Shown piece after piece: positions 10,417 to 19,524 of a stretch of 19,524 nucleotides of DNA. A program made the translations under genes and the position numbers. How positions within the stretch are numbered: position 1 is the stretch's first letter; the number at the start of each line of letters is the position of its first letter. Source of the DNA: Clostridia bacterium (GTDB lineage Bacteria; Bacillota; Clostridia; Oscillospirales; CAG-272); NCBI GenBank assembly GCA_017456685.1, contig JAFTIV010000186.1:1-19524 (forward strand), given 5' to 3'. The notes beneath the pieces were generated by a model. That model did not search any database, was not told the DNA's origin, and saw nothing but the letters and a program-made list of their open reading frames with translations.

Positions 10417-11595
10417 TTATTTGTGCTTCAAGTTGTAAATAGGCTGTCTGATTTTTTCGATTTCGACAGTATCGCCGATTAGGGAGATTATCTCCTCCAT
10501 TGGCTTATATGCCATTGGGGACTCGTCAATTGTTGCTGGGCAAACGCTTGTTGTATATATGCCCTCCATTGATTTTCTGTACTCGTCCTCAGTAAAGAGC
10601 TCCTTTGCGCGAGCACGAGATACAAGCCTACCTGCACCGTGAGGGGCTGAGCTGTTCCAGTCCTCATTGCCCTTTCCTATGGCGATAATACAGCCATCGC
10701 GCATATTCATAGGAATTATAACGCGCTGACCCCTGTGTGCAGGAATTGCACCCTTACGCACTATTTTATCATCATCTATAAAGTTGTGCATTGTTTCAAA
10801 GCTTTCAGCCTTATAGACCCCGAGAAAGTGCATAATATCCTCGGCAATTTTTGCTCTGTTTCTAACTGCGAACTCCTGACAAATGCGCATATCGTGCAAA
10901 TATGCCTCGCACTCCGCACCCTCAAAATAGCAAAGCTGAGGTGGAGATTTTGTCCTATCTGCATATTTTTCTGCAACAGCCAAAAGAGCCTCGTCAAGCG
11001 CCTCGGGCTTGCCCTGTGCCATAAGCTCGCTACGCACGCGCTCGCGCTCGTTATCTGCCGAATGCTTGCAAGCCTCAATCGCCCTTCTTTGATAAATATT
11101 AGCCACCTGCAAGCCCACATTACGCGACCCTGTGTGAATAACGAGATACACATTGCCCTCGTCGTCCTTATCAAGCTCTATAAAGTGGTTTCCACCGCCA
11201 AGCGTGCCAAGAGAGCGAAATGCCCTGTCCTGATCCTCAAGCTCATCGAAGCAATAAAGCTCCTTTATAAGCTCTACGCCTGCATATTTTTCTCTTACAT
11301 TTGTGCCCGCAGGAATATATTTTCGAATAAACTCATCAAGCGCGCGAAGGTCAGGCTCTATTTTGCCAAGGCATACTGTGAGCATGCCACAGCCGATATC
11401 AACGCCTATTACATTTGGAATCACCTTGTCGCCAAGCGTTGCCGTAAAGCCAACGACACAGCCCCTACCGATATGTGCATCGGGCATTATTCTAACGACA
11501 GAGTTTGCAAATGGTGGCGTCTCAAGCAATGTATAAACCTGATTTACCGCATTTGGGGCTATATTATCTGTAAAAATCTTAAGATTGTAGCTCAT
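10417..11595 (-). CDS. rtcB: RtcB family RNA ligase
   Basis: This 392-residue enzyme is a GTP- and Mn2+-dependent RNA ligase that joins 2',3'-cyclic phosphate or 3'-phosphate ends to 5'-OH ends. The metal ligands and active-site blocks are complete: Asp66 and Cys69 in GVDIGCGM, His137 in LGGGNHFIEL, His154 in VIHTGSRNVG and His270 in ETMHNFID. His319 in SAPHGAGRLVSR is the residue expected to be guanylylated. The early MPDAHIGRG motif is also intact. I choose the ATG at 11595 because GGGAG lies eight bases upstream; the in-frame ATG 18 nt earlier overlaps that ribosome site. No archease, RtcA or RtcR is in the window. It is 132 bp downstream of the Clp-FtsH fusion gene on the same strand, so it may receive readthrough, and a perfect palindrome (11621-11636) lies in its leader. 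The cellular role in clostridia (RNA repair after cleavage) is inferred. Confidence 0.95.
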   Translation of the reverse strand: MSYNLKIFTDNIAPNAVNQVYTLLETPPFANSVVRIMPDAHIGRGCVVGFTATLGDKVIPNVIGVDIGCGMLTVCLGKIEPDLRALDEFIRKYIPAGTNVREKYAGVELIKELYCFDELEDQDRAFRSLGTLGGGNHFIELDKDDEGNVYLVIHTGSRNVGLQVANIYQRRAIEACKHSADNERERVRSELMAQGKPEALDEALLAVAEKYADRTKSPPQLCYFEGAECEAYLHDMRICQEFAVRNRAKIAEDIMHFLGVYKAESFETMHNFIDDDKIVRKGAIPAHRGQRVIIPMNMRDGCIIAIGKGNEDWNSSAPHGAGRLVSRARAKELFTEDEYRKSMEGIYTTSVCPATIDESPMAYKPMEEIISLIGDTVEIEKIRQPIYNLKHK

Positions 11596-11620
11596 TATGC
11601 TCACTCCCTTCAAATTATGT

Positions 11621-11727: not shown

Positions 11728-14700
11728 TTATTTTACAGCATATTTTTCAAGAATTTCGTTTATCTGGCTTGCCTTTAGATAGTTCGTTTCAAGAAGCACC
11801 TTGACAAGCTCGTCAACGGCAACTCTATTTTTTGCGATTTGCTCCTTAGCAATAGCTAACTGCTCGCTTAGAATTTGGTTAATTCTGCGTCTTACAATTG
11901 ATTGATATTCGGCATCCTTGTCAAGATAGTCGGCAGAGATAAGTCCTACCTCCTCGTCCATTCCGTAGTGACAAATCATAGCCTGAGCAAGTCTTGTAGC
12001 ATTTTTAAGGTCGCTTGATGCTCCTGTTGAAACACCGTCCTCATCGCCATAGTAAACAAGCTCCGCACCTCTACCGCCGAGAGAGCATCTTATGCTTTCA
12101 AGAAGCTCGCGCCTTGTGTAGCCACTTTTCTCCTCCTCGTTGCGTTGCATATAGCCACCGTGGTCGCCTCTTGAGACGATTGTAACATACGCAGGTGTGT
12201 TTCCACTTAACCAATAAATAAGGGTGTGACCCGCCTCGTGACGCGCGGTTTTTTCAAGGTCCTTAGTTGACCAAAGCCTCTTTTCACCGCCATTGAAGGT
12301 TTCAAATGCCTCCTCAAAGTCCTTATCACCGATTGTGGCATTGCCCTTGATTGCATTTCTTAGAGCGAACTCAATAACGGATTCAAGGTCTGCAAGGCTC
12401 ATTCCAGAGGAACGAGTAGCAATATTCTCTATCTCATCATCTGTAAGCGTGATGATAGGATACTTTGGAAGCTTTAGGCGTAGATACTTTTCTCTCTCCT
12501 CCTTGTTAGGAAGGTCAACAAGAATTTTTCTGTCAAAGCGACGAAGAAGCGCGGGGTCAAGGCTTACGCCCTTCTTTGGGTCTATGTTAAAGTTTGTAGC
12601 GGCTAAAATGAACACAGGCTTAGAGGTGTCTGTATTAAAGCCGTCCATCTCTGTAAGGAACGCGGTAAGGGTCGATGACTCTGCATTTGTTGTGCTTGTG
12701 TTTGCGTTTCTGTCCTTAGCGATAGCATCTATCTCGTCGATAAAGACAACCGCAGGCGCATACTTGCGCGCGGAAGCAAAGAGCGCATGAACGGTCTCTG
12801 GTCCCTCTCCTACAAATCTCTTTAGGAAGGAGTTGCCATCAACAGGCATAAAGGTAACATCGCTCTCGCCTGCCATAGCCTTTGCAAGAAGGGTTTTACC
12901 TGTGCCTGGAGGACCGTAAAGGAGAATTCCACGAGGTGCGCGTGCTCCCTTCTTCATAAAGGAAACAGGGTCCTTTAGATAATTCACAAAATATCTAAGC
13001 TCATCCTTAGCATCCTCAGCACCAATAACATCATCAAAGCGAACCTTTGGCTTAACTCCACCATCGAGAATTTGCTTTGAATCTCCTGTATCGGGAGCAA
13101 GCGAAAGGGTGAAGCCAAAGAGGCGAATTTCGGCTCTCTTGCCGTCCTTAGACACGGATTGCGAGGTCTTGAAGGACATAACCTTGTTCTCGCTTGCGAG
13201 CTTGAGCATATTGCTCTGTCTGTATGCGTCCTCGCAAAGCTCCTTAATAGCCAAGTCGAGTCCGTTTTTCTTCCTTGTGCGTACTGTCAAAACATCTCTT
13301 ACACCAAGCTTAGAGAATGAGAAGAGCTCCTCTGCGCTTATATCTCCCTCTCGCTTTTGAATTATGTAGGTTGGCATTGGATGCTTTTCAATAGCATATT
13401 CAAGGAACTCCTGACCAACGGAGTCAATGTCCTCGGCATTGAGAAGCTTAATTCTCTCATCCCTCATCTTACAGCGAACATCGCAAACAATTGCAGTAAT
13501 GCGGTTTTCAAAGAGAATTTTCTTGGCATCGTCAATTGTGTCAGCGATATGAAGCTTAACGCTTCTTACCTTTGCGCAAATCTCCTCAGCAAGCTTGCCG
13601 GTCGCGAACACAAGCACCTCGTTCTCTCTGCTGTTTTCAAACATCGACTTGATTTTCTCGTCGTCTGGAATATCTGCCTTTATTGTGATTTTCTCAAGCA
13701 GGTCAAGCCTTGCGGGCTCAACAAGCCTAAAGAGCTCATAAAGCTCATCGTGGAAGAAGCCATTTGCCCTACCCTTTATAGCGCGGGCATCAGCCTTTCC
13801 GCCCTCAGCCATCATTATAGCGGCAGGAACTCTCTTATCAAGAGCAATGGGCTTTTTGATGGTATTATTGAAGGCATCTATGTTCTTGGCGAGCTCATTT
13901 CTTGCAATATCAACAAGCGCGCTTGCGCCAAGATGGTTAAACATTACGACATTACCAGAGGCAAAGCGCGAGCAAATAGGCTCTGGGAAGAGCTGATTTC
14001 CGCTTGGTCCCTTGTCGGCTGCGAGTGCCTTCATAATCTGCTTTCTTGGAAGCGCTGAGAGGTTTGCAATTGAAAGGTCGTTATACAAATTCTTTCCTGC
14101 GTTTGTGGTAAGAATTATAATGGCATCGGCAAAGGAAACCTCCTCGTCAGTGTAGTTATCTCTTAATCTACCTGCATCAAGCATTTGAAGGAAGAGGTGA
14201 ATTACATTTATATGCGCCTTCTCAACCTCGTCAAACAAGAGCACGCATTTTGGATTTTCTGCAACGAAGCTTGTTACATTACCCGCCTTAGCGCCCTTAT
14301 AAACCTTGTCAGAGCCACAGAACTCAAGATTTGCTTCCTTTTCCGAGTATTCACTCATATCAAATCTTGCAAACGGAAGCTTAAGAAGCCTTGCAACCGT
14401 TTCCGAAAGGAAGGTTTTTCCTGTACCTGGAGGGCCTGCGAAGAGGAAGGTTGCCTTTGGCTTATTTGGGTCCTTCTTTATTCTGTGTGCAAGCTGTGCG
14501 TGAAAGTAGCCTGTTATAAATACATTTATTGCGTGGTCCTGACCGAATACATGCTCAAGAAGCGATGCCTTGAGCTCCTTAGCCTCGGTAACAAGTCCTG
14601 ACAGTCCCTGCTCCTTTTCAGGCTCGTCCTCATCCTTCTGTTCGTCCTCGTCATCCTCGTCGAAGAAGAGGTCAAAAAGGTCGTCATTCTCGCCCTCCTT

Positions 14701-15156
14701 AGGGGTGAGCTGTGCATCCATTTTTCCAAAAATGTATCTTTCAACCGCAGGAGTTGGGTTTTCGAGAATAATTTTTACGAGCACATCTGCGGTAACCTCG
14801 CCAAGCTCAATCTCAAGTATGCGCTTTTCTGCCTCCTTAAAGAGAGCTCCAAGGCTTAGCTGATCGGCCTTTAGCACCTTTATATAGTCCGTCTTGAAAA
14901 GTGCCATTATATCAAATAGCACCATATCCCAAAACTTGGTGTGAACCTCAAGGAGCTTTTTTGTCTCGGCAAGCTCCTCCATTGCCTCCTCGTCGCTCGA
15001 AAGTGAGCTTGGAAGCATTCCAAAATAATCGTCCGAGAGAACCTCGAGAACTCCTACAACCAACAGGTCAACAGGAATGTCTGTGAGATTTTTTATCTCC
15101 TCCTTGCGGGCAAAGGCGTTTTTTAGAATTTCTTGAACTAAAACACTATTTTCCAT
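11728..15156 (-). CDS. Clp-type AAA+ / receiver-like / FtsH AAA+-M41 protease fusion
   Basis: A single 1142-residue frame joins parts of two protease machines. Residues 1-150 are helical and resemble the double repeat of the Clp N-domain; an acidic linker follows (155-184). Residues 190-490 are a ClpA/B/C D2-type AAA+ domain: Walker A GPPGTGKT 241-248, RFDMSEYSE, pore-loop Tyr286, Walker B LLFDEVEKAH with Asp309/Glu310, LQMLDAGRLRD, sensor TTN 350-352 and sensor-2 DARAIKG. Residues 512-645 resemble a response-regulator receiver, with Asp559 but without the usual acidic pair and Lys. Residues 705-1142 are FtsH without its membrane part: Walker A 748-755, pore motif FVGEG 781-785, Asp807/Glu808, ALLRRFD, zinc site HEAGH 973-977 and Asp1049 in STGASSDL. 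All catalytic residues are intact. The ATG overlaps the upstream gene by 11 nt, with GGAGAG before it. I infer a soluble ATP-dependent protease that the two preceding membrane proteins recruit or control. Confidence 0.9.
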   Translation of the reverse strand: MENSVLVQEILKNAFARKEEIKNLTDIPVDLLVVGVLEVLSDDYFGMLPSSLSSDEEAMEELAETKKLLEVHTKFWDMVLFDIMALFKTDYIKVLKADQLSLGALFKEAEKRILEIELGEVTADVLVKIILENPTPAVERYIFGKMDAQLTPKEGENDDLFDLFFDEDDEDEQKDEDEPEKEQGLSGLVTEAKELKASLLEHVFGQDHAINVFITGYFHAQLAHRIKKDPNKPKATFLFAGPPGTGKTFLSETVARLLKLPFARFDMSEYSEKEANLEFCGSDKVYKGAKAGNVTSFVAENPKCVLLFDEVEKAHINVIHLFLQMLDAGRLRDNYTDEEVSFADAIIILTTNAGKNLYNDLSIANLSALPRKQIMKALAADKGPSGNQLFPEPICSRFASGNVVMFNHLGASALVDIARNELAKNIDAFNNTIKKPIALDKRVPAAIMMAEGGKADARAIKGRANGFFHDELYELFRLVEPARLDLLEKITIKADIPDDEKIKSMFENSRENEVLVFATGKLAEEICAKVRSVKLHIADTIDDAKKILFENRITAIVCDVRCKMRDERIKLLNAEDIDSVGQEFLEYAIEKHPMPTYIIQKREGDISAEELFSFSKLGVRDVLTVRTRKKNGLDLAIKELCEDAYRQSNMLKLASENKVMSFKTSQSVSKDGKRAEIRLFGFTLSLAPDTGDSKQILDGGVKPKVRFDDVIGAEDAKDELRYFVNYLKDPVSFMKKGARAPRGILLYGPPGTGKTLLAKAMAGESDVTFMPVDGNSFLKRFVGEGPETVHALFASARKYAPAVVFIDEIDAIAKDRNANTSTTNAESSTLTAFLTEMDGFNTDTSKPVFILAATNFNIDPKKGVSLDPALLRRFDRKILVDLPNKEEREKYLRLKLPKYPIITLTDDEIENIATRSSGMSLADLESVIEFALRNAIKGNATIGDKDFEEAFETFNGGEKRLWSTKDLEKTARHEAGHTLIYWLSGNTPAYVTIVSRGDHGGYMQRNEEEKSGYTRRELLESIRCSLGGRGAELVYYGDEDGVSTGASSDLKNATRLAQAMICHYGMDEEVGLISADYLDKDAEYQSIVRRRINQILSEQLAIAKEQIAKNRVAVDELVKVLLETNYLKASQINEILEKYAVK

Positions 15157-17503
15157 TATTTCTCTCCATCTTTTCCGCTCTGCGTGCGTCCTTATCTACC
15201 ATTACATAGCCAAAGCGCGCAAGAAGCCAATATGCGTCATTAAGAATTTGATAGTCATACTTGATAACATCAGCCTCGTCCTCGCTAACCCCGTCGCGCT
15301 CGCTGACTATTTTTCTAAAGTCAACAAGACCCTTCATCGTTGTGAGGTTTCCGTGACGACGAAGTGCAAAGCTCTTACCATTTGTATGCTTTCCGTCTTC
15401 GCCTATTTCGTCTCTTATCTGCTCAAGGGTTGCAGGAATAAAGCCTCTGCTTATCATAAACGCATTCCAGCGCAAATGCTCCTGTGCAACAAGGTTTCCG
15501 CGCTTGTCGGTTGAAAGCTTAAGGCTATATTCGTCCTTAAGCACAGGTCTGGCGAGCGAGGTTACAAGCTTAATCTCAGGCTCTCTTTTGCCAAGATATC
15601 TTTCGTAATAGTCCTCTTGTGTTAGGTGTGTAAGACCTGTTTCACCGTTTTTACAATAATCAATGCCCATAAGATTGAGCTTTAGTCTTAGATTGAGGCA
15701 GGCGTAAATATTTGAGTCTCTTTGATAGCTCCAGAGCTTTGAGTGCCATCTCTCGATAATACTCTGTCTTTCTCTGCCAAGAAGCGCCTCGCTTACTCTA
15801 TTTAGCGCAATTTCCTTATTTTCAATAGCATAAAGCGCGTCTCTTATCTGTGCAAGAGCAAGCCACTTATCGCTTAGAAGTGCTTCAATATTAAAGCCAA
15901 CCTGCTCATCGTTTCCTATAAATATGCAATTTTTCTGCTCAAGGAAGCTTTGCTCCTTAGACCAGCCTCTTGCCTTTACGAATATAATAATATTCTCAAT
16001 GCCCCACTCGCTTCTCTTTTCAACAAGCTTTTGAGCCATATCAATGTTTTCAAGGTCTGTACCGAAGGCAATCACAATGTACGAAAGCTTCTTTTCGCCA
16101 TTTTTTGAAAGAACGCGTGCACGGATTGTGTCGTAGAAGTCCTTTTCGTTGATATTAATCTTTTGAGGGTCAACAAGCGCAGGGGTCTGTGGAAGCGGTA
16201 GATAATCAATTTTTCCGCCATTTTTTGCAACAGCAAGCTCATCACTCATCTCGTGCTCAAAGCGGTAGTAGGTGTGATTGAGGTTCTTGTCGCTCTCTGC
16301 ACTTTTTTCCTTGTCAAAGATGATATAGCTTATCCTCTTTTGCGAGGGCTCAAGCTCATTTCCCTTAGAAACAAGAACATTACTTGAGGCAGAGGAAAGG
16401 AAGATTTGCTGATTTGTCTTGCCGAAGCCGACAAGTATCATATTGATATCAACATTGTCCTTGATAAGTGCGGTGTCGTAATCAATATAGCTACTATCCA
16501 TATAGCGAGTAATGGGATATTTATCAATGAACTCAAGAGCAACCTTTTGATACTCGTTTGTATAGTGGAAGCATCCGCGTGCGCTTGATATAATATCGGT
16601 GTAAATCGCCTCGTATCTTGGGTCGCCATAAACATAAAGGTCAAGCTTTCCAAACACATTGAGCCTTTCCTTGCCGTCCTTGTCGAAGATGCCGTTTAGA
16701 AAGGCTCTGCAAAGCTTCATATTTCTCTCGTCATCGCGAGTGTTTATTATAATCGAGGTCTTTCGTGGAGTGCGTAGGCGCTCAAGAAGCGCGTTTGCCT
16801 TTTCCTTATCTGTAATTTTATCGAGCTTTTTCTTAATTTTTCTGCTCATTCTATCATAGCGAGCCACATCCTTGGCAACATATTTTAGGATTTTGTCCAC
16901 CATTTTCTCGCTATAGCGCGTAGAAACATATGGCATCTTTTCAAAGTACAATGCCAGCGAGCCCTCCATATCGAGCTTATCTATTATGGTTTTGTTTCTA
17001 TCGCGTACATCTGTCTTAAAGAGAATTTTGCTCTTTTCGTTATCTCCAAAGATGAATACGCGGTCCTTTTTGGTGAACCTTGTTCTCAAGCTCTGGAAGA
17101 ACTCCCACAAATGCTGTGCTGTTAATGAAAATACAAGTATCAAAGCGTTAATACCTACCAATGCAAAGCAGAAATAAATTGTTATCTCGTAAAGGATATT
17201 GTCAGCCATCAAAAGCTCAATTTGGTCAAGGTCGTATTTTAAAACGACTAAGTTTATAATTCGATTGACCGCTCCAAAGAATGCCTTTAAAAAGTCTTTG
17301 CCCGCATACATATATCCTATTAGATAAAGCGGTATTGCGGTTATGTAGATTATTGCACATTTGCCCTTCTTGAAGCTACGAAGGAATGTTATTCTTTCCG
17401 TACGCTCCTTCGCAAGCGCACTAACTATAACGAACAGAACCTCGGCAAAAAGCAGTGCCAAGCAAATAATCGTTACGGCATATATTGTAAGTGTTGTTAT
17501 CAT
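15146..17503 (-). CDS. Membrane protein with Rossmann-like regions and C-terminal RyR domain
   Basis: This 785-residue protein has three membrane segments (about 4-30, 48-66 and 102-130), with a further hydrophobic amphipathic stretch at 70-88. Two Rossmann-like cytosolic regions follow. The first starts at RVFIFGDNEKSKIL (148-161). The second has INMILVGFGKTNQQIFL (353-369) and SYIIFDKEK, and resembles TrkA-N/RCK nucleotide-binding units. Further alternating strands (SYIVIAFGTDLENIDMA, NIIIFVKARG) run to about 530. The C-terminus (about 672-770) matches the bacterial RyR (ryanodine-receptor repeat) pattern: AQEHLRWNAFMISRGF, then RRHGNLTTMKGL, then YDYQILNDAYWLLARFGY. The upstream gene has the same plan and the shared motif EHxRWNAFM, so the two look like diverged paralogues. 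The start overlaps the upstream stop in ATGA, with a GGAG site inside that gene. It is probably a membrane sensor of a nucleotide or small ligand; channel activity is possible, but no selectivity-filter motif is visible. Confidence 0.8.
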   Translation of the reverse strand: MITTLTIYAVTIICLALLFAEVLFVIVSALAKERTERITFLRSFKKGKCAIIYITAIPLYLIGYMYAGKDFLKAFFGAVNRIINLVVLKYDLDQIELLMADNILYEITIYFCFALVGINALILVFSLTAQHLWEFFQSLRTRFTKKDRVFIFGDNEKSKILFKTDVRDRNKTIIDKLDMEGSLALYFEKMPYVSTRYSEKMVDKILKYVAKDVARYDRMSRKIKKKLDKITDKEKANALLERLRTPRKTSIIINTRDDERNMKLCRAFLNGIFDKDGKERLNVFGKLDLYVYGDPRYEAIYTDIISSARGCFHYTNEYQKVALEFIDKYPITRYMDSSYIDYDTALIKDNVDINMILVGFGKTNQQIFLSSASSNVLVSKGNELEPSQKRISYIIFDKEKSAESDKNLNHTYYRFEHEMSDELAVAKNGGKIDYLPLPQTPALVDPQKININEKDFYDTIRARVLSKNGEKKLSYIVIAFGTDLENIDMAQKLVEKRSEWGIENIIIFVKARGWSKEQSFLEQKNCIFIGNDEQVGFNIEALLSDKWLALAQIRDALYAIENKEIALNRVSEALLGRERQSIIERWHSKLWSYQRDSNIYACLNLRLKLNLMGIDYCKNGETGLTHLTQEDYYERYLGKREPEIKLVTSLARPVLKDEYSLKLSTDKRGNLVAQEHLRWNAFMISRGFIPATLEQIRDEIGEDGKHTNGKSFALRRHGNLTTMKGLVDFRKIVSERDGVSEDEADVIKYDYQILNDAYWLLARFGYVMVDKDARRAEKMERNNGK

Positions 17504-19524
17504 TTATTTTCTCCGTCCATAAAATCGTAGCAATAGTCCTTTTCCTTCTCACCATCAGGGAGCTTATCATAGGTCACTATGAGATTGTGCATCTTTGTCT
17601 TTGAGGATTTAAGCGCCTTATTTTCGGTATAAATATAACCCTCAGCGCGCATAAATGCGTTCCAACGAGAATGCTCAAGCTCGCGCGACTGCTCGTACCC
17701 TAAGAGCTCAAGGGTCGGGCTTTCCCTCTGCTCCTTTTCTCTTATGCAGTAGCCAAGGCTACGAAGAATGTCCACATGGACAGCCCTTGCAATAGACGAG
17801 CGCCTACAGTATTCCTCAATATTATATCTGCGCTCAGCACAGATTATATCGTTTTTATTATATGCAATGAAGAACGATGGTATTTCCTTAAGAAGCCCTA
17901 TAATATCATCAAGAAGCTCCTTTATTTTATTTATTTCTCTCTTGCTACTATTTTCGCTCTTGCTTTTTATTGCGCCCATAATAGCCTCGGTGGGGGAAAA
18001 CTCCGCAAAGAGCCTTGCCTCGTGAGGTGAACGCTTAAGGCTATCAAGAATGTACTTGCCGTCCTTATTATCGCCGATTTTTTCGTTTACATAGAACGGG
18101 ATTATTCTCTTAAGCTCGCCTCTTAGCGCCTCGAGCTCCTCGCTTATATCAGCCGAGGTGCTACCGCTTGAGATAAAGGTGTTTATCTTTGCATCGGCGC
18201 TGCCAAGAAGCGTATCGCAATCAACCGCCTTCTCGTTGAAGTCCAAGCCATCAACAAGAGATTTTGTAGCCCAGTACATATGGTAAGGCTTTGCCTTATC
18301 CTCAGCCTTTTCATTTTCAACATTTTCAAGCGAATAAACGCTTTGCATGCTTCCTATGTATTTTATGTCCTTATCACCGTTTTCGTTAAGGATATTAGTC
18401 TTTCTTGTGCTGAATACAACCGCCTGAATAGGTGGAAGGCTATCAAGCGCGCCAAGACCACGCCCAAGAATTTTTCGTACCTCCATTGCGGTCTTAACAT
18501 TAAGCTCATCGTTGCCAAGGCAGACATATACGATATCTATTCCGCCCCTTGCGCTTGCCTGTATTTTCTTAATCGTATTTTCGAAGTCAATATGATTTAC
18601 ATCTACCTCTGCGTAAGGAATAATCTCATAGATTGAGTCGCCCTTGACATTTTTCTTGCCGTATTCCAATAGCGCAGACATTTTCGGCTCGAGGCGCTTT
18701 TCAAGGTCCTTGTCCTTATCAATTATATGAATTTTCGGGCGACAGTTAGGAATCTGTGATGCCCAGCTATACGCCTTAAGAAGCTCTGTTCCAAAGGAGC
18801 CGATGCCTATAATTACAATATCTACGCTCTTTTCGCCCTCGCCTGCCCTTGGGAAAATCGCCGAGCTTGAGCTAACGGTGCTTATCGCAAGATTTTTTGT
18901 AACATCTATTCTACGGATTTTCAAATCAGGCGCGCCCTTTTCTCTGCCTCTTGAGATTGAGTCAATCAAAAGCTCGCTATCAGCAGTGGTTGCAAAAATG
19001 TAAAGCTCTGCCTCATATTTTGACCTTAGCTCTGCCTTACAGCGCTTAGAAAGATTTATGGCCTGCTTTACATTCTCCTCCTCGTTTGCGCCGATAAAGA
19101 AGAATTTTCTAACCCTTCTTGGTCTTTTAAACCCTACGGCAGATATGTCCTTTCTAAAGCAGATGGCACCGAGCTTAATTGCGCGCTCCATCATTTCGTA
19201 ATGCTCCTCACTTTGCTCGTGATAAACATCAAAGAAAACTATAACCGCCCTTTTGTCTCTGCTTCTTACATCATCTGCAAGCGCGATTGAGCTTGAGTTA
19301 AGCTCAGACATATAATAAACGACCTTACCGCTTCTAATCACAGAAAGAATATGCGCCCACGCATCCTTTACAAAGGATAAAACAAAGCCGGCAGTCATCA
19401 CGGGTGCTACAACAAACATAACAACCGAGTAAGTAGCAAAGACGGATGCCCACTTGCCTTGAACGGCACCTACTGCGCCAAGATAATCATTTATAATTGT
19501 GTAATCTCCATCAAGCACGAAAAG
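17500..19524 (-). CDS. Membrane protein with Rossmann-like regions and short RyR domain (5' end missing)
   Basis: The frame is open to the right edge of the window, so the N-terminus is missing; a GTG at 19518 is in frame but has no visible ribosome site. Numbering from that GTG gives 672 residues. One membrane segment is seen (about 24-50), probably the last of several. A first Rossmann-like region starts at KVVYYMSELNSSSIAL (65-80) and continues with VIVFFDVYHE and KFFFIGANEEENV. A second has VDIVIIGIGSFGTELL (232-247), a clear GxGxxG dinucleotide-binding loop, followed by KIHIIDKDKDLEKRL with an acidic residue at the end of strand 2, which favours NAD-type ligands. The C-terminus (about 612-672) is RyR-like, with LEHSRWNAFMRAEGY and YDKLPDGEKEKDYCYDFM, but it stops before the last helix seen in its neighbour. 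The stop overlaps the next start in ATGA. It is the first visible gene of the Rossmann/RyR-protease operon. Confidence 0.8.
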   Translation of the reverse strand, partial: LFVLDGDYTIINDYLGAVGAVQGKWASVFATYSVVMFVVAPVMTAGFVLSFVKDAWAHILSVIRSGKVVYYMSELNSSSIALADDVRSRDKRAVIVFFDVYHEQSEEHYEMMERAIKLGAICFRKDISAVGFKRPRRVRKFFFIGANEEENVKQAINLSKRCKAELRSKYEAELYIFATTADSELLIDSISRGREKGAPDLKIRRIDVTKNLAISTVSSSSAIFPRAGEGEKSVDIVIIGIGSFGTELLKAYSWASQIPNCRPKIHIIDKDKDLEKRLEPKMSALLEYGKKNVKGDSIYEIIPYAEVDVNHIDFENTIKKIQASARGGIDIVYVCLGNDELNVKTAMEVRKILGRGLGALDSLPPIQAVVFSTRKTNILNENGDKDIKYIGSMQSVYSLENVENEKAEDKAKPYHMYWATKSLVDGLDFNEKAVDCDTLLGSADAKINTFISSGSTSADISEELEALRGELKRIIPFYVNEKIGDNKDGKYILDSLKRSPHEARLFAEFSPTEAIMGAIKSKSENSSKREINKIKELLDDIIGLLKEIPSFFIAYNKNDIICAERRYNIEEYCRRSSIARAVHVDILRSLGYCIREKEQRESPTLELLGYEQSRELEHSRWNAFMRAEGYIYTENKALKSSKTKMHNLIVTYDKLPDGEKEKDYCYDFMDGENK

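Follow-up and report, generated by a model that had tools for sequence, protein, structure and literature searches.

Gene order and overlaps at the locus

The window analysed here is an entire contig of 19,524 nucleotides (nt) from a Clostridia bacterium of the CAG-272 lineage (JAFTIV010000186.1, assembly GCA_017456685.1; G000:C174 in our own numbering, where G, C and L denote genomes, contigs and loci). It belongs to a metagenome-type assembly of 208 contigs, representing a genome that is 63.7 % complete. Its minus strand carries, in this order, the genes for two membrane proteins of one family (MEMB), termed MEMB3 and MEMB2, and for a soluble Clp-FtsH hybrid protease, termed PROT:

17500..19524, minus strand: MEMB3, RCK/RyR membrane protein, 5'-truncated, 674 residues left, running off the contig end
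17500..17503, minus strand: stop-start overlap of MEMB3 and MEMB2, ATGA, 4 nt; GGAG at 17511-17514
15146..17503, minus strand: MEMB2, RCK-channel-like membrane protein by structure model and fold matches, 785 residues
15146..15156, minus strand: overlap of MEMB2 and PROT, 11 nt; GGAG at 15164-15167
11728..15156, minus strand: PROT, consisting of a Clp-type AAA domain, a receiver-like middle, an FtsH-type AAA domain and an M41 peptidase, 1142 residues

In both downstream genes (MEMB2 and PROT) GGAG lies 7 nt upstream of the ATG. Coordinates and GGAG sites thereby confirm a preliminary description of the window, made from the letters only, according to which the three genes overlap by 4 and 11 nt, possess their own ribosome sites and are translationally coupled. 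MEMB3 is 5'-truncated because the window is the whole contig and the gene is cut at the contig end; the GTG listed for it at 19518 is not a real start. By alignment to full-length relatives, approximately 87 N-terminal residues are absent, comprising the first two transmembrane helices (TM1, TM2) and the pore helix.

Anatomy of the MEMB proteins

MEMB3 and MEMB2 are two unlike members of one RCK-channel-like membrane family with a RyR-type end, as established by structure modelling, fold matches and family profiles. The following features were assigned:

18682..18819, minus strand: MEMB3, TrkA_N-like Rossmann stretch, residues 236-281, GIGSFG at 240 (Pfam E 0.0059, below cut-off)
17533..17694, minus strand: MEMB3, RyR-type C-terminus, residues 611-664, with H618, W621, H646 and D663 (profiles, alignment)
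17411..17494, minus strand: MEMB2, TM1, residues 4-31 (model, hydrophobic segment)
17306..17356, minus strand: MEMB2, TM2, residues 50-66 (model, hydrophobic segment)
17246..17293, minus strand: MEMB2, pore-helix-like segment, residues 71-86, 16 residues (model; putative RCK-channel position from fold matches)
17219..17245, minus strand: MEMB2, loop at the filter position, VLKYDLDQI, without GYG (model, loop alignment)
17075..17197, minus strand: MEMB2, TM3, long inner helix, residues 103-143 (model, hydrophobic segment)
16508..17068, minus strand: MEMB2, first RCK-like Rossmann domain, residues ~146-332 (model; matches to 3llv and KefC)
15869..16456, minus strand: MEMB2, second RCK-like Rossmann domain, residues ~350-545, GFGKTN at 359 (model, fold matches)
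15149..15730, minus strand: MEMB2, helical C-terminus with RyR-type residues H676, W679, H717 and D745 or D750 (alignments, model)

Profile comparison showed MEMB2 and MEMB3 to be homologous along the greater part of both chains (probability 98.8), and 468 relatives of MEMB2 were recovered at E 1e-3 among 7995 candidates scored. The MEMB2 model, based on a 70-row alignment (pLDDT 90.4), displays TM1, TM2, a helix at the pore position, TM3, two Rossmann domains and a helical C-terminus; two RCK-type Rossmann domains following pore helices, the arrangement used to judge membership in the RCK family, are thus present. Compared with the PDB, the model aligned to 998 chains, with GsuK, KtrA, the rings of DMI1/CASTOR and TrkA at the top, and Foldseek ranked GsuK and TrkA first. 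CASTOR/DMI1, which are plant nuclear Ca2+ channels, share with MEMB2 an RCK gating ring plus an extra C-terminal domain and aligned to its residues 146-779; to our knowledge they contain no RyR domain. The GsuK rows deviate from the model by a root-mean-square deviation of 11-12 Å and the orientation of the domains therefore differs in MEMB2. The transmembrane part was matched only via rows of GsuK, MthK and Slo1, all with large deviations.

GsuK, described as a K+ channel with two RCK domains that ADP and NAD+ activate (PMC3510474; PDB 4gx0-4gx5), is the best fold match of MEMB2 and likewise combines pore helices and two subsequent RCK-type Rossmann domains in a single chain. In contrast to GsuK, the MEMB proteins occur as two unlike subunits, carry an added RyR-type C-terminus and are devoid of GYG or GFG in the loop at the filter position (0 of 49 proteins). 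An acidic pair is found at this position in 39 of the 49, and the MEMB2 rows shown are VVLKYD-like.

Single-sequence Pfam searches yielded a RyR match for MEMB3 under the curated cut-off (E 0.0058) and neither a Rossmann nor a RyR match for MEMB2. Family-level methods were more informative: TrkA_N was detected in eight and RyR in five of ten MEMB3-type proteins (weakest accepted E 0.1), the MEMB3-type profile matched the RyR1 chimera 6uhi (E 1.4e-7), and a 49-row MEMB profile matched stand-alone RyR proteins (probability 97.5, E 4.9e-12) which are encoded in the neighbourhoods described below and belong to PF02026 (130 bits in L163). The original proposal of paired Rossmann/RyR membrane proteins is supported, for the RyR end of MEMB2 less firmly, and the profile searches suggested at that time succeeded only with family profiles and fold matches, single sequences giving weak matches or, for MEMB2, none. 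The RyR-type end of MEMB2 is deduced from the homology to MEMB3, from conserved residues and from a match of the full-length model to Repeat12 of RyR3 (9ls7; Foldseek rank 18, E 0.055, probability 0.87), and is weaker than that of MEMB3; the C-terminus modelled alone was poor (pLDDT 61). A profile match of MEMB2 to radixin (E 0.054) was dismissed as chance.

The binding of cyclic ADP-ribose (cADPR) immune signals by RyR domains was first shown in 2026 for phage proteins: according to the preprint (PMC13232231), these RyDEP proteins cleave or bind 2'/3'cADPR via H75, W78, H100 and D117. The H, W, H and D residues aligned to these ligand residues are invariant in the alignments of MEMB3-type (10 rows) and MEMB2-type proteins (70 rows), and a loose H/W/H/D motif occurs in 72 of 76 full-length MEMB proteins. 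RyDEP and MEMB thus share a RyR-type domain (PF02026, Repeat12-type) with the same ligand residues, whereas RyDEP is reported as a free phage protein cleaving or sequestering 2'/3'cADPR (PMC13232231) and the predicted MEMB domain terminates a bacterial membrane protein. The stand-alone RyR neighbours (L163, L174, L184, L168, L171) have kept the first His, the Trp and the Asp, and four of the five have Thr at the position of RyDEP H100; judging from these residues, they may bind another ligand or act as decoys.

The PROT protease and its association with MEMB

Four domains were delineated in PROT:

14068..14589, minus strand: Clp-type AAA domain (D1), residues ~190-363, Walker A GPPGTGKT at 241
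13237..13644, minus strand: weakly receiver-like middle, residues ~505-640 (response-regulator matches, E 0.09-1.3)
12502..13059, minus strand: FtsH-type AAA domain (D2), residues ~700-885, Walker A GPPGTGKT at 748, FVGEG at 781
11752..12273, minus strand: M41 peptidase domain, residues 962-1135, HEAGH at 973

Every catalytic motif sought was present: two Walker A (241, 748) and two Walker B motifs (305, 803), HEAGH at 973 and TGASSD at 1044. The peptidase is a full domain with HEXXH (PF01434, 113 bits; cut-off 29.9). No hydrophobic segment exceeded the threshold and PROT hence has no membrane anchor. The initial account of an intact Clp/FtsH hybrid protease free of a membrane anchor is borne out by motifs, domain scores and the hydrophobicity scan. 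D2 and peptidase resemble FtsH (M41), and D1 resembles the D2 of ClpA/ClpB; unlike these proteins, PROT joins both motors in a single chain, has no membrane segment and scores far below their cut-offs (380.8 bits against 600 for FtsH, TIGR01241; 157.5 against 993 for ClpA), which together with the missing anchor places it outside FtsH. A receiver domain in the middle region was rejected in view of the E-values and is retained as a weak likeness.

All 120 PROT relatives among the matches listed carry AAA_2, AAA and M41 (precomputed domains); 7632 proteins pass E 1e-3 against PROT, possibly with a large share of ordinary FtsH or Clp proteins. No description of this layout was found in the open-licence literature. 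FtsH-type ternary conflict systems, as presented by Kaur et al. 2020 (PMC7159879), also comprise a protein with two AAA motors, one of them FtsH-type and active, and are presumed to act in conflict. In these, the first motor is described as a copy of FtsH that has become inactive, and the partners are MoxR and vWA proteins, whereas D1 of PROT is of Clp type with intact Walker motifs. By eye, the genes listed for the window include no MoxR or vWA gene, and neither PROT nor the window belongs to these systems.

A diverged Clp-FtsH subfamily (~35 % identity to PROT) was observed at L022:2726-5611 and L029:9496-12384, accompanied by conserved small neighbours of ~207 and ~295 amino acids with no Pfam match; a diverged subfamily also occurs beside PROT in G024. 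In the window itself, PROT is followed on the same strand, after a gap of 114 nt, by a gene (10417-11613) presumably coding for an RtcB-type RNA ligase look-alike.

PROT neighbourhoods were inspected for the best 80 of 112 relatives from one scan, all from Clostridia-type or uncultured-bacterium records; contig ends truncate many of these loci, and the gene caller found no PROT frame in four. MEMB is encoded in 25 of the 80 loci, mostly as a single copy, and as the next gene on the same strand in 22. YbjN-like proteins occur more often (37 loci, next gene in 29), stand-alone RyR proteins occur in seven, and 28 loci contain neither MEMB nor YbjN. Card1-like genes adjoin PROT in L027 and L154, just below the Pfam cut-off.

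Gene content was furthermore compared across 394 genomes of the order (thresholds MEMB E 1e-10, PROT E 1e-110). MEMB was detected in 30 genomes, PROT in 13 and both in 12. MEMB and PROT are adjacent in only four of these 12 (G000, G049, G053, G229), and their link is therefore not purely local. The outcome that the preliminary description had named as its refutation, the three families being mostly apart in other genomes, is therefore seen in part, whereas MEMB and PROT are associated at the level of genomes.

The frequency of YbjN suggests that PROT may work primarily with YbjN-type (TY-chaperone) partners delivering substrates, for example ADP-ribosylated ones, MEMB being one optional neighbour. 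An ADP-ribosylglycohydrolase gene directly after PROT in L065 fits this, as does the tie of YbjN-related chaperones to ADP-ribosylglycohydrolase systems reported by Iyer et al. 2022 (PMC9503650). We consider it rather unlikely: the window contains no YbjN-like gene, 13 loci (window included) have MEMB and neither YbjN nor a RyR protein, and PROT genomes nearly always possess MEMB (12 of 13).

It is improbable that MEMB3, MEMB2 and PROT form a single dedicated machine, as the preliminary description had proposed. The tight overlaps and in-gene ribosome sites of the window speak for such a fixed trio, and coincident contig sizes (17103, 40149 and 51850) indirectly suggest co-location of MEMB2 and PROT elsewhere. 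As a conserved unit the trio was nevertheless rejected, on three observations: the MEMB3-MEMB2 pair of G008 and its PROT are on separate contigs, MEMB2-type genes of L042 and L088 are non-adjacent to PROT (~5.9 kb and ~4.1 kb away), and the DNA retrieved for those of G199, G339 and G751 contains no PROT gene.

The pair recurs once more, in G008 (L198) of the same genus, with genes overlapping by 1 nt. In a tree of 66 MEMB proteins, G008 MEMB3 joins MEMB3 of the window (support 90) and G008 MEMB2 joins the MEMB2 clade (support 100); at least eight changes are required for the PROT neighbourhood and at least six for the TIR neighbourhood. Further MEMB pairs are present in G310, G159 and G299 and around PROT in G053. 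Since such pairs recur and G008 PROT resides on another contig, beside a YbjN-like gene, the older unit is the MEMB pair rather than the trio. In G008 the pair is part of a same-strand run (L198:7685-17562) together with genes for S-adenosylmethionine decarboxylase (AdoMet_dc, E 1.6e-24) and an agmatine-deiminase-like PAD_porph protein (E 1.3e-88).

TIR neighbours and possible function

MEMB genes are associated with genes for TIR domain proteins. In the order sample, TIR_2 lies within 6 kb of MEMB in seven cases (6 of 30 genomes) compared with 0.66 expected, a more than tenfold enrichment, and within 3 kb in six compared with 0.41. The class sample (291 genomes, 11 with MEMB) contributed ten additional genomes with MEMB, G464 being a mere fragment; here, TIR genes are located within 1 kb of MEMB in two genomes, with 0.05-0.08 expected. 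MEMB and TIR genes overlap by 4 nt in L183, and L184 contains a single run of MEMB, RyR-protein and TIR genes. TIR genes adjoin MEMB in G053, G310, G345, G378, G410, G112, G669, G686 and G096. Their products include TIR-LRR, TIR-beta-propeller and TIR-NB-ARC-TPR proteins and others, most of which have, by eye, kept the Glu after the S..W motif region.

The leading reading, to which we give somewhat less than an even chance in its full form, regards the MEMB proteins as NAD-nucleotide-gated, channel-like sensors or effectors, linked to TIR in relatives and equipped with an optional dedicated protease. MEMB3 and MEMB2 would form a mixed gating ring that senses a NAD-derived nucleotide, possibly an ADP-ribose-type signal such as TIR enzymes make, and the nucleotide-bound ring would open or shut a membrane pore. 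Of the inputs considered at the outset, a nucleotide or NAD-like one remains the likeliest. In relatives, the neighbouring TIR protein is probably the signal source, and judging from these neighbourhoods the MEMB family may take the part of the membrane effector in an immune or stress response of the Thoeris type. PROT would be a soluble two-ring unfoldase-protease; in this operon, the MEMB pair probably recruits it to the membrane and would substitute for the missing FtsH anchor. Least certain is the last step, in which PROT might clear the activated channel, ending the response, or degrade proteins handed over to it.

In the review PMC12948488, type II Thoeris is presented as a TIR protein plus a membrane ThsA with macrodomain, signalling by His-ADP-ribose. 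It shares with the present case a TIR gene beside a membrane protein whose domain is expected to bind an ADP-ribose nucleotide; MEMB differs in its predicted RCK/RyR architecture in place of a macrodomain, and in the window contig lacking TIR.

Several observations weigh against the leading reading. K+ selectivity is unexpected because all 49 MEMB loops are free of GYG/GFG, and on this sequence basis conduction as such is only hypothetical. The MEMB2 C-terminal profile alone did not reach RyR (probability 3.1). The p-values for co-occurrence of MEMB and PROT (4e-14; 3e-9 for genomes at least 90 % complete) ignore shared ancestry, 18 of the 30 MEMB genomes have no PROT, and in G003 and G012 PROT is present and MEMB was not found. 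Some TIR domain exists in 29 of the 30 MEMB genomes, a figure which, having no MEMB-free control, provides no evidence at genome level. The window contig ends inside MEMB3 and includes no TIR gene, and the TIR link of its trio is therefore borrowed from relatives. In L185-L188 and L190 (class sample) and in L140, MEMB is located among recurring housekeeping-like genes (names by eye), and in the G008 run polyamine metabolism seems to accompany an RCK-type protein.

The latter two observations equally speak for MEMB as a chromosomal NAD- or nucleotide-gated ion or osmotic regulator, with PROT as a quality-control protease and TIR marking some copies only. RCK channels and Trk/Ktr systems, the fold matches of MEMB2, are ion-homeostasis proteins, and no relatives were found in viral contigs or, for the one MEMB queried, in plasmids. 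The patchy presence of MEMB in both samples and the TIR enrichment seen in each of them argue against such a role, which we deem possible and less probable than the sensor reading. The readings overlap and their likelihoods need not sum to one. An involvement in defence, as envisaged in the preliminary description, gains support from the TIR genes beside MEMB and loses some through the housekeeping-like flanks of other loci.

A more specific version of the TIR-linked sensor, which we consider unlikely and still worth stating, is a cADPR-gated bacterial channel, where a RCK channel made of two subunits receives an ADP-ribose signal from TIR enzymes at its RyR-type domains and the dedicated Clp-FtsH protease resets or executes the response. 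In prokaryotes, such a channel would parallel the control of animal ryanodine receptors by cADPR, which is disputed. RyDEP-type residues here terminate a bacterial membrane protein that resembles a NAD-activated channel, and the genes of its relatives occur in operons with TIR genes. Should this end gate the channel, the result would be a TIR-to-channel route of bacterial immunity, of which no description was found in the open-licence literature, and the long-standing question of direct cADPR action on RyR domains could be addressed in a simple system.

Membership in a known defence family was rejected: PADLOC gave no match for MEMB2, MEMB3 and five further MEMB proteins, and only generic AAA matches (IetA and others) for PROT. 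No MEMB or PROT relative was found in viral contigs, and no relative of the one MEMB queried in plasmids. The sole phage record, MT835673.1 (L201), is an UNVERIFIED 'Bacteriophage sp.' scaffold with flanks like those of bacterial locus L139; it is probably mislabelled bacterial DNA, and carriage by mobile elements was discarded.

Other neighbours of MEMB were also recorded, the names vWA, PP2C, calcineurin-like phosphatase and, outside L168, PrsW being assigned by eye; a candidate vWA protein in L170 had no Pfam match. MEMB2-like genes adjoin large proteins with STAND/DUF4062-like starts (by eye) at L121:10103-10694 and L134:5745-8816, and Tubulin_2-type proteins are encoded downstream of MEMB at L156:12576-16172 (E 2.8e-48) and L170:12317-15898 (by eye). 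Runs of MEMB with a PrsW-type intramembrane protease and a Card1-like gene were observed at L168:2238-4406 (PrsW, E 4.7e-29), L171:1497-3665 and L159:6585-7622 (by eye), so that two kinds of protease, PROT and the PrsW type, are found beside MEMB genes.

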